A stretch of DNA of 64,000 nucleotides from Candidatus Jettenia caeni. GTDB lineage: Bacteria > Planctomycetota > Brocadiia > Brocadiales > Brocadiaceae. Positions 34,900 through 42,958 of the stretch are shown here, one piece after another; the stretch's first letter is position 1, and each line of letters starts with the position of its first letter. Position numbers and translations under genes: made by a program. A model generated the notes under the pieces. It had not been told where the DNA came from, did no database searches, and saw only the letters and a list, made by a program, of their open reading frames with translations. The stretch is from NCBI GenBank assembly GCA_000296795.1, contig BAFH01000002.1, forward strand, positions 776,686-840,685. The letters run 5' to 3'.

Positions 34900-35814
34900 A
34901 TGACATTTCAAGAAATTATACTGAAACTACAGAACTATTGGGCAGATTACGGTTGTGTGATATGGCAACCTTATGATATCGAAAAAGGAGCCGGCACCTT
35001 TAATCCTGCGACGTTTCTTAAAGCATTAGGCCCGGAGCCATGGAAATGTGCTTATGTTGAACCCTCGCGACGGCCAACTGATGGCAGATATGGTGAAAAC
35101 CCAAACAGACTGCAACACTATTATCAATTTCAGGTGGTAGTTAAACCTGCGCCTGATGACTCGCAGAATATCTACCTGAACAGTTTAAGATCTTTAGGTA
35201 TCGATCTTATCAAACACGATGTACGGTTTGTTGAAGATGACTGGGAATCGCCAACTCTTGGGGCTACCGGTCTTGGTTGGGAAGTATGGCTGGATGGAAT
35301 GGAAGTTACGCAGTTTACGTATTTTCAACAGGTAGGCGGGATCGAACTTGAGCCTATCACGCTTGAACTTACATACGGGCTTGAGCGCATTGCCATGTTC
35401 ATTCAGGAAAAAGAATCTGTTTTTGATCTCGAATGGGTCAAGGGTTACACATACGGAGACATTCACAAACAGGATGAGATTCAGTTCTCCACATATAATT
35501 TCAAGGTAGCAGATACAGCGATGCTCTTCCAGCTTTTTGATATGTATGAAAAAGAGTGTCAGAAGCTCTTAAAAGAAGATTTGGTACTGCCGGCGTATGA
35601 TTACGTTCTCAAATGCTCACATGCCTTTAACATGCTGGATGCACGGGGGGTTATCGGAGTAACACAACGCACTGGCTATATCGGAAGGGTGCGAAACCTT
35701 GCCAGGCGCTGTGCAGAGAGCTATGTTCGGCTACGTGAGACACTGCATTGGCCACTCCTGAAAGATAGCCCCGTGGCAACAACTCACCATGGAAAAACAC
35801 AGATAGAGTATTGA
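34900..35814 (+). CDS. glyQ: glycyl-tRNA synthetase alpha subunit
   Basis: This 304-residue class II synthetase subunit begins [19 protein letters not shown] (ATG at 34900; an upstream TTG at 34885 is less likely). The family strings [40 protein letters not shown] and [11 protein letters not shown] are present. GlyQ works as an alpha2beta2 complex with GlyS. glyS is usually directly downstream, but here a convergent regulator gene follows, so the beta subunit must be encoded elsewhere. Confidence 0.95.
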
Positions 35815-35850
35815 TAGTACAGAACAAAGGAGGATAATCAATTACCTCGC

Positions 35851-37110
35851 TTATAAACCCTGAGCTATGTTCTCGCCGGTAATAAGCCCATCTACGATAT
35901 TAAGATATTTCCACTTCTCTAATATCATCTTAAGAGGTACTGCCTTTTGACTCTCACCTCCTACCACAAGGAGGATATAAGGTTTTTTACTTTGTTTTTG
36001 CATACTGTTTTCAATCTCGCAAAAATTTATCGTAAATATAGAACTAAAGAAGTTTGCTGCATCAATAAGATCTTGTCTGGATACTGCTATGCTGTTAGGA
36101 GCAAATTTTTTTAGCCTCTCTATTTGCTCATATTCGTTATAGAGAAATTTTCCATTCTCTTGCTCAAAAACCTGTGTTACTAAATGATGAAACAAGAATC
36201 CGTTTTTATTAAATGGAGCGAATGCTATCTCGCCCATAATATCAAAATTTTTTATGAATGATTGTAAACGCAGATTATAGACATGATGCATAAATCCTGT
36301 TACAGGGAAATTCCATTTTATACTACCTAAGCCAAAAATAACTATATCGCTTTGAAGTATCCGATCGCTAAATCCAAGCATTTTTTGAGTCCTGATACGT
36401 TGATTGACAATTTCGTACAGTGATTCCCTGCTATATAGATTAGATGTTTCTGGAAGTTGATATGCGTGGGCAATATCAATGTTTAATTTTCTGTTTAATA
36501 ATTGAGATACAATATGAAGTGGAGTCAATTCTATTAAACTGCTTGATCTTAAAGCTACACAACCTGAGAAAAGCACCTTTATATCCGTGTTCTCTAGTTC
36601 ATCCGCTAAACTCATTACGGTAGCAAAAACACTGTTTCCACCTGATGCGGATATCTTAACTTCTATCTTATTAATCTCCTCTGTTCCTTTAGTTCTGCTA
36701 TTTACCATTTCAGTTTTTTTCTCAAGTATATCGTTTATCTTTCTTACTAAAACGTCAGAAGCATACTTGCCTATTTGATCGAAATAGTTCCTGGTGGAAA
36801 CAAAATAATCAGGATTTTTAAAGATTACTATATCATCGAGATTGTAAGTGCTCTTCAGCTTCTCTTCCAGTACTGCGCTTCTCTCATCATAGAACATCTT
36901 TAACGGGGCAGTTTTCTTTTTTTCCCAACGCGATAACCGTTTAGAAACTAATGATTGCGAAATATCTAATTCGTTGGCAATTTCCTTTTGTGTTACAAAC
37001 CGGGGCCATTTATTATAAATGACTTTTGCAATTTTATTGTCCAGCTCAAGCTGACTAGAGATCGTCCTGGGCCTGGAGTTTTTACGTTTCATATTTTTTT
37101 TTATTGCCAT
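35851..37110 (-). CDS. SorC-family transcriptional regulator divergent from hdh
   Basis: This 419-residue protein has an N-terminal helix-turn-helix (about 38-62, VTQKEIANELDISQSLVSKRL) and a long C-terminal domain of the SorC sugar-binding type: ISASGGNSVFATVMSLADEL, SDIVIFGLGSIKWNF and the end VVGGESQKAVPLKMIL to LITGENIAQGL. SorC proteins respond to phosphorylated sugars or other metabolites and usually control a divergent or neighbouring operon. The start ATG (37110) has aagga at good spacing. The gene opposite is hydrazine dehydrogenase, which makes this its candidate regulator. The effector is unknown. Confidence 0.75.
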   Translation of the reverse strand: MAIKKNMKRKNSRPRTISSQLELDNKIAKVIYNKWPRFVTQKEIANELDISQSLVSKRLSRWEKKKTAPLKMFYDERSAVLEEKLKSTYNLDDIVIFKNPDYFVSTRNYFDQIGKYASDVLVRKINDILEKKTEMVNSRTKGTEEINKIEVKISASGGNSVFATVMSLADELENTDIKVLFSGCVALRSSSLIELTPLHIVSQLLNRKLNIDIAHAYQLPETSNLYSRESLYEIVNQRIRTQKMLGFSDRILQSDIVIFGLGSIKWNFPVTGFMHHVYNLRLQSFIKNFDIMGEIAFAPFNKNGFLFHHLVTQVFEQENGKFLYNEYEQIERLKKFAPNSIAVSRQDLIDAANFFSSIFTINFCEIENSMQKQSKKPYILLVVGGESQKAVPLKMILEKWKYLNIVDGLITGENIAQGL

Positions 37111-37221
37111 AATAATTCCTTAAGAAACGACCGGCAGGCATTAATTCCTATAAGCAGAAGTATAGTACCAAACGAGATCAAATGAAGTCTGGAATATTAA
37201 TAATACCAATAGTATAGATGG

Positions 37222-37299
37222 TAAGTATTTACATAAGTAATTATCACAAATATTATTTAATAATAATTTATCATAAAATATTATGTATGTAAATACTTA
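37222..37299. promoter_or_regulatory. inverted repeat pair 1, candidate operator
   Basis: TAAGTATTTACA (37222-37233) and TGTAAATACTTA (37288-37299) are exact 12-bp inverted repeats 54 bp apart. They lie 112-189 bp upstream of the SorC gene. The core AAGTATTT recurs in pair 2 near hdh. Confidence 0.5.
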
Positions 37300-37505
37300 T
37301 TATTTAAATTGTTATAATTATTAGTAATATTTATGTCTATATAATAGCGTATTTTAACATATATATTATCGTAGTAATAACCTGCCGATATAGTATAATA
37401 TTGTGCAATTTTAGTGTAACCTTAAAGCCTTTCTTAATTATAGCTGGAGAGCAATTAGTACCTTACATATTAAACGAGAAAGGTTTATTTCTTCAACCCT
37501 GACAA

Positions 37506-37518
37506 TAGAAAGGAGGTG
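37506..37518 (+). promoter_or_regulatory. orphan extended Shine-Dalgarno sequence
   Basis: TAGAAAGGAGGTG is fully complementary to the extended 16S rRNA tail CACCTCCTTTCTA (recalled from other bacteria). No start codon with an ORF follows at normal spacing. It lies 168 bp before the hdh start codon and may sit in its leader, where ribosome binding without translation can stabilise mRNA. Confidence 0.5.
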
Positions 37519-37544
37519 TAAATCAGATCTTTGTATAAGGCCTG

Positions 37545-37589
37545 AAATACTTTTTTGTTATTTTTGAAGATGTTTATAAAAAAGTATTT
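37545..37589. promoter_or_regulatory. inverted repeat pair 2, candidate operator
   Basis: AAATACTTTTTT (37545-37556) and AAAAAAGTATTT (37578-37589) are exact 12-bp inverted repeats with a 21-base spacer, 97-142 bp upstream of the hdh start. They share the AAGTATTT core with pair 1. In RNA they could form a hairpin instead. Confidence 0.5.
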
Positions 37590-37686
37590 ATGCTGAAAAA
37601 GGAGTGTTTGTTATATCTATAGAAAACTTTGTTTTATTGTTGCGTAATGTTAATCACGGTATAAAAAGGTAAAAAAGGAGAGCATT

Positions 37687-39393
37687 ATGTATAACTTTTT
37701 AAAAGTAACATTAATGTCAGCATTAATAGGTTGCGGGGCGATGGGAGCTGCATCCAGTCTCATGCTGAAAGAAGCAAAGGCAGTAGAAATTATCACCCAC
37801 TGGGTACCTCATGAAGTATATGGACAGATCGGTGAACCGGATAACAACGGTAAGGTGTTCTTCTCTGGTTTAGGGGCAAAATATATGGGATATCCAAAAC
37901 ATGAGAATCCACCACCCTATCCTGGCAAATACAGCAAATTCTGGAGAACCTTGCCAGCATACCGTTACTATATCCCTGATTTTATGTACAACAGGGATGA
38001 AGTAAGACCTTCAAACCCGATAAAGGGAACCTTCCAGCTCGAGCAGTGTATCGCATGTCACTCAGTTATGACCCCCGGTATCGTAAGGGATTATAAGAAG
38101 AGTGCTCACTCCAGGGCTGAACCGAACCCGACAGGCTGTGATACCTGTCATGGTAATAACCATCAGAAGCTTACCATGCCATCGTCAAAGGCTTGTGGTA
38201 CCAGTGAATGCCATGAGACCCAATATAGCGAACAGGGTCAGGGCGGTATCGGTTCACATGCATCGTGTTCAAGCTTTGCTCAGATTGAATGTGCATGGTC
38301 AATTGAAAGACCACCGGGCGACACTGCCGGTTGCACTTTCTGCCATACCAGTTCAGAAGAAAGATGCAGCACATGCCATCAGAGGCATCAGTTTGATCCG
38401 AAGGTTGCAAGACGTGCAGAGCAGTGCAAGACCTGCCATTGGGGTAAGGATCACAGAGACTGGGAGGCATATGATATTGGTTTGCATGGGGTAGTCTATC
38501 AGGTAAACAAATGGGATCCAAAGCAGTTCGATTGGGATAAGAAGTTGGCCGATGCAGATTATGTTGGTCCGACATGTCAGTATTGCCACATGAGGGGTGG
38601 TCATCACAACGTACAGAGGTTCAGCACCGTATATACCAGTATGGGTATGTCGATGGCTGATCGTGGAGCACCGATATGGAAAGAGAAGAGAGACCGTTGG
38701 GCATCAGTGTGCGATGATTGCCATTCACCGAGGTTTGCGAAAGAAAACCTGCAAGCATTGGATGAATCGGTTAAGGATGCCGGTCTGAAGTATCGTGAGA
38801 CCTTTAAAGTTGCAGAAGACCTCCTGAAGGATGGAGTAGCTGATCCAATGCCAAAAGATCTTGCACCTGACTGGTCAGGTCAGCATATCTGGAGTTTGAA
38901 GATCGGTGCCTATCATGATGGTCCGGAATATGGTGGCAAGACGGGTGAGTCTGGAGAGTTCAGGATGTCGAACTGTTCAGATATAGAAAGGCTCTGCTTT
39001 GAGAGCGTAGGGTATTTCCAGACGTATATCTATAAGGGTATGGCACATGGTTCATGGAACGATGCGACGTACTCAGATGGTTCATTCGGTATGGATCGTT
39101 GGTTGGTGAACGTAAAGCAGAATGCTTCTCAGGCAAGGAGACTTGCTGCATTGGAGAAGAAGGTTGGCATCAGTTGGGTTCCGGAGAGTTTCTGGAAGAC
39201 AGGTGAATGGCTTGATCAGTTAACGGGTCCGTACATCGTGAAGAATCATCCGGGGAAGACCATCTTCGATCTGTGTCCTGATCCAGGTTGGTTAGATACC
39301 CATCATGCACCTGCAGAAGAGGTTGAGTATATCAACAGGAAACTTGAAGAGCTTGGCATGAGACATGAATCACATGGCGGCGCTCATCACTAA
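37687..39393 (+). CDS. hdh: octaheme hydrazine dehydrogenase
   Basis: This 568-residue multiheme protein belongs to the hydroxylamine oxidoreductase family. A signal peptide ends at about Ala32 (KEAKA). Eight haem sites are visible: Cys121-His125, Cys151-His155, Cys170-His176, Cys216-His220, Cys227-His231, Cys247-His251, Cys297-His301 and Cys342-His346. The third is a CX4CH site (CGTSECH). Tyr462 (in NDATYSDG) fits the crosslinking tyrosine of the P460-type catalytic haem, the mark of oxidative members. Overall it matches my memory of anammox HDH, which oxidises hydrazine to N2 in the anammoxosome; a hydroxylamine-oxidising paralogue is the alternative. It is a single gene with a strong ribosome binding site. 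Confidence 0.88.
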   Translation: MYNFLKVTLMSALIGCGAMGAASSLMLKEAKAVEIITHWVPHEVYGQIGEPDNNGKVFFSGLGAKYMGYPKHENPPPYPGKYSKFWRTLPAYRYYIPDFMYNRDEVRPSNPIKGTFQLEQCIACHSVMTPGIVRDYKKSAHSRAEPNPTGCDTCHGNNHQKLTMPSSKACGTSECHETQYSEQGQGGIGSHASCSSFAQIECAWSIERPPGDTAGCTFCHTSSEERCSTCHQRHQFDPKVARRAEQCKTCHWGKDHRDWEAYDIGLHGVVYQVNKWDPKQFDWDKKLADADYVGPTCQYCHMRGGHHNVQRFSTVYTSMGMSMADRGAPIWKEKRDRWASVCDDCHSPRFAKENLQALDESVKDAGLKYRETFKVAEDLLKDGVADPMPKDLAPDWSGQHIWSLKIGAYHDGPEYGGKTGESGEFRMSNCSDIERLCFESVGYFQTYIYKGMAHGSWNDATYSDGSFGMDRWLVNVKQNASQARRLAALEKKVGISWVPESFWKTGEWLDQLTGPYIVKNHPGKTIFDLCPDPGWLDTHHAPAEEVEYINRKLEELGMRHESHGGAHH

Positions 39394-39448: not shown

Positions 39449-39477
39449 GTAGAGACGACCTACCGGGTCGTCTCTAC
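39449..39477. repeat. perfect palindrome at the 3' end of the mnmE-like gene
   Basis: GTAGAGACGACC and GGTCGTCTCTAC form a 12-bp stem with a TACCG loop. It lies between the convergent hdh and mnmE-like genes and overlaps the last codons of the latter (VETTR and stop). It may also act as a terminator. A degenerate relative is at 5223-5250. Confidence 0.75.
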
Positions 39478-40971
39478 CCTTATATTAATCGTTCCATGTC
39501 CTTCTAAACATGCTGTAAAAATCTTTTTTAATTCATCAATCAGCCCGGATATCATACAGGTCTTATCTCCCGTGTTCAAATAATTTTTTGCTTGTTTCAC
39601 TACAACATCAGCTTTTGCCAGCAAACAGTACTGCCTTCTGGTAAATACTATCGGCCTCATGGGCTTATAAGTAGTGTCTAATTCGCCTACAAGCCTTTCT
39701 TTTAAATCTTCAAGTCTATCCCTATTCCGGGCGGATAGAGAATATAAAGGCTGAGTCACTGCAGACTCAATCTTTTTTCTGTCTAACCTTGCAGCCAAAT
39801 CACATTTATTGACTACGGGTATAATCTTGTACGTATTCACGTTTTGGTGTAAATCATCAGCATTCTTTTTCTTCGACCAGGAACTTAATGCACTCAAGAT
39901 CTCCGCATCTTCCTGATCAAAAGGCCTGGAATTATCAAATACTGCCATTACCTTATCTGCACGTTGGAGTTGTTCGAGCGCCATTTCTATGCCCATAGAT
40001 TCGAGGATGTCTTCAGTATCTCTGATACCCGCAGTATCCATAATTTCAAAAGGGACTCCATGAACAGAGATCAATTCGCTTACGTAATCTCGCGTAGTCC
40101 CCGGCTCATGATGCACCAGCATTCGCTCCTCACCAAGGATAGCGTTGATGATAGTAGATTTGCCAACATTAGGCTTACCCAGGATCACTAACACTTGTGG
40201 TGTAGTCAGCGCCATACCAAGTGAAGCCGTTTCCAATAAGCATCTGATATGATTCTCCAGGGAAGAAAGCATCTTTTCGTTCAATAATGCCTCTCTGCCT
40301 TCCCTTGCCAAATTGGGAATTAAGGATTTTTCTTCTCCCCGGTACTGATCTGTATGGATAATTGCCCCATGATACCAGGATTCTTTAAGGAAAGCCCGCT
40401 CGATTCCTTCAATAATTTCCAGTCCTTGCCTTAATGCGCTTGATAATGCCCCTGCATGCTGATCCAGCAACACCTTTACGCCTAACTTTGTATGTGCGTG
40501 AACAACTGCCTGAAGCGCCTCTTTCTGAACAAAATCCATTTTGTTATTTTCAAAAGATTGCTGTAACAAAGCGTCCTGCGGAACCCCTTCTGCGCCTGAA
40601 GATTGCAGGCATTCATAAATCCTCATTACAACACGGATTCCGCCGTGGCAGTTTATTTCTACAATATCTTCACCAGTAAAACTACCCTCCTTCTTGATTA
40701 TGTGCAAGATAACTTCGTCAAGTCTTTGTCCTTTATCATGTATATACCCATAGTAAAGCTTTTGATTTACAGCATTTTGAAGATCAGCAATCCCTTTTCC
40801 TGTGAATATCTTATTAACAATAGTAAAAGCGTTTGGGCCGGACACCATAACCTTACCAATACCACCTTCACCTAACGGTGTTACGATCGATGCTATGGTT
40901 TTATGTTTTACAAGCTTATCGTTTTTTGTTCTTTTATCATCTTTCTTTTGCATGTATTTTAATGGCCTCAT
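39460..40971 (-). CDS. MnmE-like GTPase without C-terminal cysteine motif
   Basis: MnmE modifies the wobble uridine of tRNAs with MnmG. This 503-residue relative keeps the folate-binding start TIASIVTPLGEGGIGKVMVSG, FTGEDIVEINCHGG and a full G domain: GKPNVGKST (near 267), EPGTTRDYV, DTAGIRDT and NKCDL. The usual PGEFT-RAF-NGK string is altered (PQDALLQQSFENNKMD), and the terminal FCIGK motif is missing. The protein ends LEGHGTINIRVETTR, where the last residues come from a palindromic repeat. It may be an inactivated or specialised paralogue. It is convergent with hdh. Confidence 0.75.
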   Translation of the reverse strand: MRPLKYMQKKDDKRTKNDKLVKHKTIASIVTPLGEGGIGKVMVSGPNAFTIVNKIFTGKGIADLQNAVNQKLYYGYIHDKGQRLDEVILHIIKKEGSFTGEDIVEINCHGGIRVVMRIYECLQSSGAEGVPQDALLQQSFENNKMDFVQKEALQAVVHAHTKLGVKVLLDQHAGALSSALRQGLEIIEGIERAFLKESWYHGAIIHTDQYRGEEKSLIPNLAREGREALLNEKMLSSLENHIRCLLETASLGMALTTPQVLVILGKPNVGKSTIINAILGEERMLVHHEPGTTRDYVSELISVHGVPFEIMDTAGIRDTEDILESMGIEMALEQLQRADKVMAVFDNSRPFDQEDAEILSALSSWSKKKNADDLHQNVNTYKIIPVVNKCDLAARLDRKKIESAVTQPLYSLSARNRDRLEDLKERLVGELDTTYKPMRPIVFTRRQYCLLAKADVVVKQAKNYLNTGDKTCMISGLIDELKKIFTACLEGHGTINIRVETTR

Positions 40972-41244: not shown

Positions 41245-42958
41245 GAGACTGTGTCGTAATTATCAAAATTTTTTATAAAAAAGCGGACTCTCGGAGAGAT
41301 AAAGAATGCGGGATGTGATAGAATATACCCCTAAAAAGGAGGTGGAATAATGGCATATCGATATGGGAATCGTTATCAAATAGCATTATTACCCAAAAGC
41401 ATCGAGGACTATGTTGGTCCCGATGACCCGGTAAGGGTATATGATGCGTTTGTTGATGCACTGGATTTGAAAGAACTTGGTATGGAGATGAATCCTCATA
41501 AAGTTGGTAACACAGAGTATGATCCCCGGGTCATGCTCAAATTATTTGTCTACGGCTATTCGTATGGATGGAAGAGTTCCCGGAAACTCGAGAGAGCTCT
41601 GTATCATAATGTATCGTTTATCTGGCTTCTGGGAGGACTTACTCCTGATCATAAAACCATAGCGGAGTTTCGCCGTAAGAACACAGAAGCCCTTAAAAGA
41701 ATTCTCAAGCAATGTACTCGGATGTGTATGGAATTAGACTTACTCGATGGCAATGTACTCTTTGTAGATGGAACAAAGATCAGGGCAAATGCATCTCGTA
41801 CGAGAAATCACACAAAGCACCACTACGAGGAACACTTGGCAGAGGTTGATAAGCGGATAGATGAACTGCTTGAGGAATGTGAACGAATTGATGAGAAAGA
41901 GAAAGAACAGGGTTCATGGATAAAGCTGGAGAAAGAGCTGGTAGAGAACGAAGAGTATCGTACCCGGATACGGGAGATGTTGAATCGATTTAAAGAGGAA
42001 GAGGAAAAAGGGAAAAGGCCGAAAACGATAAACCAGACCGATCCGGAGAGTGCCCTGATGAGAAGCGTACAAGGTTCCCATGCGAGCTATAATGTGCAAA
42101 GCGTTGTGGATGAGAAGCATAGTCTTATTGTGCATGTTGATGCCGTCAGCGAGACGAGTGATGTAAACCAATTTGCCCATCAGATTACTCAAGCGGAAGA
42201 GGTGACCGGGAAGGGATGTAAGGTTGGATGTGCAGATGCAGGCTATGCAGATACCGAAGAGCTCGAGAAGATAGACCGGAGGGGGACAACAGTCATAGTT
42301 CCATCGCAGCGGCAAGCACTGCATAATCCAGAAGAAAAGCCCTTTGGTAAGGATAAATTTGTCTATGACAAAGAGCACGACTGTTACTGGTGTCCGGAAG
42401 GGCAGAAGCTCGTGTATGAAGGGAAACACGAGGGAGACAAAAAGATAGCATACCGGATACCGGATGCTGTCGTGTGTAAGAAGTGCAAGCAGTATGGTCA
42501 GTGTACAGATTTCCCGAGGGGGAGAAAGATAGTTCGGTTATCTCAGGAAGAGGTCAAGGAGAAACTGGAGAGGCAGTATGAGCACCCAGAGTCTCAAGAG
42601 ATCTACAAGAAACGGAAGGCACGGGTTGAACATCCGTTTGGTCATATCAGGAGGAATCTGGGGATGACGAGCTTTCTGGTACGGGGACGAGAAGGAGCAC
42701 GGGCGGAGATATCAGTCGCAGCAACCTGTTTTAATATCGTACGAATGATTACGTTACTGGGAGGTGTGAGAGAGCTTATAGGAGGATTCATGGCATTGCA
42801 GAGCTAAGAGATTGAGGGAAGATGCCTCATTATCTACAGGGTATGAAAAAAACGATGTCTTTTTGAGACACATATGCAGATCATGTTTCACCGAGAGTAT
42901 TTTTCTCTCTGATTAAAGAACGAATCCAACCCTTTCTGGGTAATTATGACACAGTCTC
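41245..42958. mobile_element. IS1182-type insertion sequence
   Basis: The ends GAGACTGTGTCGTAATTA (41245-41262) and the complement GAGACTGTGTCATAATTA (42941-42958) are inverted repeats with one difference. Flanks beyond them also resemble each other imperfectly (CCCTT). The element is about 1.7 kb with one full-length transposase gene. No clear target duplication is seen. It separates the hdh block from the polysaccharide locus. Confidence 0.8.
41350..42807 (+). CDS. IS1182-family transposase
   Basis: This 485-residue DDE transposase begins MAYRYGNRYQIALLPKSIED after an aaaaggagg ribosome binding site. It has the family N-terminal domain (VMLKLFVYGYSYGWKSSRKL), the first catalytic Asp in LFVDGTKIRANAS, the second in CADAGYADTEEL and the Glu in RARVEHPFGHIRRNLG. 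A four-cysteine knuckle-like part (CYWCPEG, CKKCKQYGQC) sits in the insertion domain. The frame is intact. Confidence 0.92.
   Translation: MAYRYGNRYQIALLPKSIEDYVGPDDPVRVYDAFVDALDLKELGMEMNPHKVGNTEYDPRVMLKLFVYGYSYGWKSSRKLERALYHNVSFIWLLGGLTPDHKTIAEFRRKNTEALKRILKQCTRMCMELDLLDGNVLFVDGTKIRANASRTRNHTKHHYEEHLAEVDKRIDELLEECERIDEKEKEQGSWIKLEKELVENEEYRTRIREMLNRFKEEEEKGKRPKTINQTDPESALMRSVQGSHASYNVQSVVDEKHSLIVHVDAVSETSDVNQFAHQITQAEEVTGKGCKVGCADAGYADTEELEKIDRRGTTVIVPSQRQALHNPEEKPFGKDKFVYDKEHDCYWCPEGQKLVYEGKHEGDKKIAYRIPDAVVCKKCKQYGQCTDFPRGRKIVRLSQEEVKEKLERQYEHPESQEIYKKRKARVEHPFGHIRRNLGMTSFLVRGREGARAEISVAATCFNIVRMITLLGGVRELIGGFMALQS

Follow-up and report, generated by a model that had tools for sequence, protein, structure and literature searches.

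The window, i.e. the whole stretch of 64,000 nucleotides analysed here, is part of a genome of 4,087,350 bases assembled in four contigs. At the junction of two convergent genes, one for hydrazine dehydrogenase (hdh), the other for an MnmE-like protein, it carries a short perfect palindrome. The hydrazine dehydrogenase gene marks the organism as an anammox bacterium. The features of the locus, and two genes found elsewhere in the same genome, are listed below. Residues of the MnmE-like paralogue are numbered from the second ATG, at 40953, which gives a protein of 497 aa.

37687..39393, plus strand: hydrazine dehydrogenase gene (hdh), convergent neighbour (NF052343, 1236.8 bits, cut-off 900)
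39449..39477, no strand: REP-like perfect palindrome GTAGAGACGACC-TACCG-GGTCGTCTCTAC, between the two convergent genes
39460..40971, minus strand: mnmE-like paralogue, 503 aa (TrmE_N, MMR_HSR1 and TIGR00450 profile matches, and fold match)
39460..39477, minus strand: codons GTA GAG ACG ACC CGG TAG, which encode VETTR plus the stop and are written by the palindrome; in the sister species the gene ends here with YT and stop
40000..40002, minus strand: Glu318, which corresponds to Glu282, a catalytic residue in E. coli MnmE; retained here, whereas the canonical copy has Met
40021..40023, minus strand: Arg311, which corresponds to E. coli Arg275, the residue that holds Glu282 stable; retained here, whereas the canonical copy has Asp
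40564..40578, minus strand: QDALL, residues 126-130, where PGEFT is expected; motif replaced throughout the paralogue clade
40645..40647, minus strand: His103, equivalent to T. maritima H82 and E. coli H84, a residue at work in the partner subunit's folate pocket; kept, missing from the canonical copy
40846..40848, minus strand: Met36, where the folate pocket has Arg20 in T. maritima and Arg23 in E. coli; Arg lost
G000:C2, about 662,862-664,211: canonical mnmE, containing PGEFT and ending FSEFCIGK
C3:500406-502190: mnmG, single copy (863.8 bits)

Genomes of the Brocadia type have glyQ as the convergent neighbour of the mnmE-like gene, with htpG, frr and pyrH next in line. The window (34900-39393) and the sister species have a gene for a SorC-like regulator, along with hdh, in between; apart from hdh, the names of neighbouring genes were assigned by eye from the sequences. 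The gap upstream of the mnmE-like gene holds different insertion sequences in the two species, an IS1182 element in the window (41350-42807) and, in the sister species, a transposase (L052:10494-11617) which we take to be IS630-like.

The arms of the palindrome measure 12 bp and are perfect: GTAGAGACGACC is found at 39449-39460 on the plus strand and at 39466-39477 on the minus strand, i.e. two matches against 0.08 expected, a number reached in none of 100 shuffles. Folded as RNA, the hairpin has an energy of -21.2 kcal/mol (z -5.9). The exact repeat occurs once in the genome, and 15 genome sites feature its nine outer bases on both arms (none with the reversed control). A search of 39 genomes, that of the window among them, identified palindromes with these arms in 26, with a maximum of 50 in G002. 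The inner part varies among copies, and the arms remain largely complementary. Eleven of the 15 copies overlap no ORF of at least 100 aa, two lie within an ORF, and two, the window copy and L039, overlap the 3' end of an ORF. A passage of PMC6006769 gives the GTAG foot as a mark of REP sequences. The palindrome is a REP-like element located where two convergent genes meet. The arms were searched at the nine Y1_Tnp loci of the genome, about 1.5 kb on each side, and found at none. A different GTAG-footed perfect palindrome, GTAGGGGCACG...CGTGCCCCTAC, lies at L053:440-467, about 1 kb from the best Y1_Tnp match of the genome. A literature search for REP sequences in anammox bacteria returned nothing relevant.

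The same hairpin might function mainly as a bidirectional transcription terminator serving hdh and the mnmE-like gene, rather than as a mobile repeat. That the two species of the genus both have it between convergent genes fits this role, and the sequence scans as terminator-like; however, the T-run is poor, and most of the near-copies in the genome are not at gene ends. A predominant terminator function is thus conceivable, yet somewhat short of an even chance. The terminator and REP readings are mutually compatible.

The initial annotation had placed VETTR and the stop codon of the mnmE-like gene inside a perfect palindrome, as is the case, and had proposed that insertion of the repeat cut about 20 residues, catalytic end included, from an MnmE protein. 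Orthologues ending at the same place without the palindrome had been named beforehand as the observation to look for against this idea. Orthologues are present in 19 of 23 same-family relatives, and 18 of the 19 are of this kind, since they end with IFxxCLxG or something close to it, followed by a short tail, and have no such palindrome in the fetched flanks (up to about 1.5 kb around the MnmE-like loci). Among the MnmE-like loci scanned for it, with their fetched flanks, GTAGAGACG occurs only at those of the window and of the sister species (G001, 90% identical). In the latter the stop follows ...CLEGHGYT, and the palindrome, outside the gene, starts 61 bp further on. Relative to the sister species, the window sequence has a one-base shift, which bypasses the sister stop, and it lacks about 54 further bases; the frame thus enters the palindrome with a net gain of eight residues, and the protein ends ...CLEGHGTINIRVETTR followed by the stop. 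The derived C-terminal extension TINIRVETTR starts just upstream of the codons written by the palindrome. Tails of similar length were found in the palindrome-free orthologues L010, L023 and L024; read by eye, the tail after the Cys residue measures seven residues in L008 and six in L019. The last codons do sit in the repeat, and the palindrome can be said to rewrite the C-terminus, in the sense that it writes the last residues of an extension; no residues were cut. Loss of the catalytic end by repeat insertion is, given the shared end point and a window protein longer than its sister, hardly tenable.

The MnmE-like protein matches PF10396 (TrmE_N, 80.3 bits) and PF01926 (MMR_HSR1, 77.0 bits) above the Pfam cut-offs, PF12631 at 29.9 bits, below the cut-off of 40.1, and NF003661 at 197.8 bits, below the cut-off of 380. 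The score with TIGR00450, the MnmE equivalog profile (204.1 bits), is also below the cut-off (252.6), although canonical planctomycete MnmE exceeds it in only 1 of 45 genomes. The domain layout is that of MnmE, TrmE_N plus a helical domain into which a Ras-like G domain is inserted. The GTPase residues are present: the P-loop with its Asn, involved in K+ binding, and the equivalents of Arg275 and Glu282.

The predicted structure (a monomer modelled with 17 sequences; pLDDT 81.6, pTM 0.77) is matched by seven solved MnmE entries, with Z-scores of 24.6-27.8 over 403-426 aligned residues; the next row has a Z of 19.0. The match stops at model residue 488, which corresponds to residue 435 of 450 in T. 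maritima and 439 of 454 in E. coli, and indicates that the swivel helix is absent and that Cys482 is not the equivalent of C451. According to the model, the protein comes to an end right ahead of the swivel helix or where this helix begins. Cys482 of the CLxG end was considered as the catalytic Cys and rejected, as the structural match, unlike the sequence by itself, places this residue ahead of the swivel helix. The short C-terminal tail is modelled with very low confidence (pLDDT about 31) and is probably disordered. In PMC12397908, the swivel helix with its FCIGK motif is described as the part which leaves the folate pocket for MnmG's FAD pocket, and a table reports that removal of residues 436-454 weakens the affinity of MnmE for MnmG.

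Proteins of this type are not confined to the family of the window genome. A profile built on members of the order matches 281 of 294 planctomycete genomes at 1e-20, many of the matches being Der or canonical MnmE; among the sequences fetched, a second, short MnmE-like protein without FCIGK was found in many planctomycete families. In a tree of 79 rows, 49 of the 50 rows devoid of FCIGK form one clade (SH-aLRT 100). The tree was made by a quick method and has long branches, and the branching order inside the clade is uncertain; the fragments L019, L033 and L034 were left out. The exception, L152 (G054), is placed among canonical rows. It is an MnmE of the canonical lineage which features R20, PGEFT and H82, lacks the FCIGK end, and has a normal paralogue, L188, beside it; L152 may be an exception to the pattern, or reflect a sequencing break.

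Co-occurrence was analyzed in 45 genomes, picked from the 294 for completeness and family spread. Canonical MnmE was identified in 28, one of these copies being a fragment located at the end of a contig, and the paralogue is also present in 26 of the 28. Of the 17 genomes without canonical MnmE, 12 were searched with the better profile A4, and five with A2 only; the profile search found the paralogue in none of the 12. The difference (26/28 versus 0/12) has a Fisher p of 1.6e-8, genomes being treated as independent despite kinship. G042 and G158 have a canonical MnmE and no paralogue was found in them; their canonical copy also lacks H82. Both MnmE types are apparently absent from G051, G057, G065, G080, G118, G143, G150, G199, G231, G089, G153 and G196, which belong to families f19, f25, f33, f63, f67, f72 and f74. 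The ORF in the window is an intact member of an ancient MnmE paralogue lineage, spread across Planctomycetota and lacking the C-terminal swivel helix.

That the gene is instead a decaying pseudogene could be argued from the missing swivel helix and PGEFT motif, and from the failure to find it in 4 of the 23 same-family relatives (G002, G005, G007, G018). In G002 and G005, however, a contig ends near the conserved neighbour glyQ, so that contig ends account in part for the missing matches. Moreover, the protein is 90% identical to that of the sister species, its G-domain motifs are intact, and it is conserved across the order; and a passage of PMC8567305 records in Tuwongella immobilis two 'paralogous genes for MnmE', probably the same pair, both detected as proteins. 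Decay is very improbable. The initial annotation had noted the missing FCIGK end; from the altered PGEFT region it took the gene to be already divergent, suggested that a second, true mnmE may exist, and proposed a search for mnmG. Both sequence features proved to be traits of the clade, QDALL standing in the window at a place where PGEFT is replaced throughout; the gene is divergent, the second mnmE exists, and mnmG is present as one copy.

The distribution of conserved residues was compared in 50 canonical planctomycete MnmEs, 41 Brocadiales-type paralogues, 42 other planctomycete paralogues and 63 reference MnmE rows; L033, L034, L063, L065, L073 and L076, either fragments or from the same genome as another row, were dropped from column counts. 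Among 119 columns conserved in the references, two pass the thresholds as kept in paralogues and lost in canonical copies, namely H82 and the second Gly of HGG. H82 is found in 40 of 40 Brocadiales-type paralogues (one further row has no data) and in 41 of 42 others, in total 81 of 82, as against 1 of 50 canonical MnmEs. Twelve columns show the opposite pattern, kept in canonical copies and lost in paralogues; they include R20, the Gly, Phe and Thr residues of PGEFT, and C-terminal positions, though in the last alignment columns the paralogue letters are non-homologous and single letters uninformative. The C-terminal FC(I/V/L)GK, whose Cys and Lys are essential in MnmE, is present in 47 of 50 canonical rows and in none of 83 paralogue rows.

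The pattern holds within genomes. In 45 pairs (genomes in which both proteins were fetched, minus a few fragments, a set overlapping the 45 co-occurrence genomes but not identical to it) H82 is in the paralogue only in 43, in both proteins in 1 and in neither in 1; the terminal Lys is in the canonical copy only in 44 and in neither in 1; the Gly of PGEFT is in the canonical copy only in 44 and in both in 1. The one paralogue with data which lacks H82, L233 (G255), has Pro instead, and its canonical partner lacks H82 too. Loss of Arg20, considered as a universal trait of paralogues, does not apply throughout: it is complete in Brocadiales rows with data, yet R20 is kept in 6 of the 45 pairs. 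A His residue is found two positions before the H82 place in 38 of the 50 canonical planctomycete MnmEs, and might stand in for it.

The 63 outgroup MnmE loci (L079-L141) had been found through a peptide pattern that includes CHGG, and their H82 count is therefore circular. They were replaced, as control, by 13 MnmEs from plasmid-collection records, found without the CHGG pattern (50 records matched, 30 were listed, and 13 were fetched for spread; one is frameshifted, one truncated). In these proteins, from Bacillota, Bacteroidota and Pseudomonadota, H82 and R20 are present in 13 of 13, and Glu282 in 11 of 11 readable cases. CHGG is also found in T. maritima, C. tepidum and Nostoc.

The GTPase domain follows a similar trend in part of the phylum. 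In the window genome the segment reads DTAGIDNTEDVIM in the canonical protein versus DTAGIRDTEDILE in the paralogue; the two changed residues correspond to Arg275 and Glu282 of E. coli, and only the paralogue keeps them. The Glu282 place is occupied by Glu in 41 of 41 Brocadiales-type paralogues; in 11 Brocadiales canonical copies the residue is hydrophobic in eight and Glu in three. Of the 45 pairs, 26 have Glu282 in the paralogue only, 9 in both proteins, 9 in neither protein, and 1 in the canonical copy only. The pattern is clear in Brocadiaceae and mixed phylum-wide, where Asp is common and the alignment gappy. In a passage of PMC3695501, the E. coli E282A change abolishes GTP hydrolysis and tRNA modification, and E282D is normal (100%).

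A passage of PMC12397908 assigns R20, Y71, V126, I130 and K450 to the cis side, and A15 and H82 to the adjacent subunit. By this placement, what the canonical copy has kept is on the cis side, and what it has lost is the trans His; in the paralogue the situation is reversed. These mostly opposite losses from the same active sites, in the planctomycetes examined, suggest that the two proteins work as one mixed enzyme. Our reading, held at a probability of roughly 60% and drawn from sequence comparison, is that the ORF encodes an intact, old MnmE paralogue which most likely pairs with the cell's canonical MnmE in a division of roles, and that its tail was added when the reading frame ran into a REP-like palindrome. 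For the phylum as a whole, replacement of the MnmE homodimer after gene duplication by an obligate heterodimer, with cis/trans and GTPase roles split, has in our view a slightly better than even chance. Canonical protein and paralogue would pair through their N domains. The canonical subunit would give PGEFT, the portion of the folate pocket that acts in cis, and the FC(I/V/L)GK swivel helix visiting MnmG, and the trans histidine of the paralogue would complete the canonical subunit's folate pocket, resulting in one working site per dimer. In Brocadiaceae, at least, the paralogue would supply an intact GTPase switch II, hydrolysis being carried out by its G domain and the G domain of the partner serving as a dimerisation surface; in anammox bacteria the paralogue would be the sole complete GTPase of the pair. 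Indels at the 3' end have led the reading frame of the window gene into the palindrome, with the gain of a short tail.

The main rival is that the two proteins form independent homodimers, canonical MnmE working with MnmG thanks to some compensating change, and the paralogue being a GTPase with another task. The two genes are not adjacent in the window genome, paralogues differ greatly from one another beyond the G domain, both in sequence and in length, and the nearby His of canonical copies might replace H82, all of which would suit separate homodimers. Neither the precise loss and retention of the trans residue nor the co-occurrence of the two genes is explained in this way, and we consider separate homodimers unlikely. 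A mixed dimer is also in line with known subunit behaviour: by cryo-EM of the E. coli complex, in a passage of PMC12397908, the MnmE dimer is asymmetric, one subunit touching MnmG. Identical subunits being already used unequally in E. coli, the split requires no new mechanism; by analogy, the heterodimer would, marginally more probably than its contrary, represent the evolutionary fixation of that asymmetry.

How GTP hydrolysis drives the MnmE-MnmG chemistry is hard to dissect because MnmE subunits are identical. If planctomycetes divide roles between two genes, each role would become separately mutable. If true, the tRNA wobble-modification enzyme of much of the phylum would resemble two redundant MnmEs, neither of which is complete. 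Among the papers listed by literature searches that covered few subscription journals, none described the complementary pattern or a swivel helix missing from such proteins.

Compared with REP sequences and RAYT elements, as described in a passage of PMC6006769, the window repeat likewise features a GTAG foot, a short perfect hairpin and many dispersed copies; in the window repeat the GTAG takes part in the base pairing, at the stem's foot. According to the passage of PMC8567305, the planctomycete Tuwongella immobilis expresses two MnmE genes, which are probably the pair described here; the passage mentions them and gives no sequence analysis of the pair. With respect to MnmE/TrmE/ThdF (TIGR00450, PF10396 plus PF12631), the paralogue has the same three-domain fold. 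Like MnmE, it is a K-loop type GTPase with Glu282 and Arg275, and has an N-terminal folate-type domain with H82. Unlike MnmE, it has neither the FC(I/V/L)GK swivel helix nor PGEFT, its Arg20 is replaced, and its family score is below the cut-off. Formation of cmnm5U34 with MnmG is the activity of MnmE, to which the paralogue is compared here by sequence and fold.
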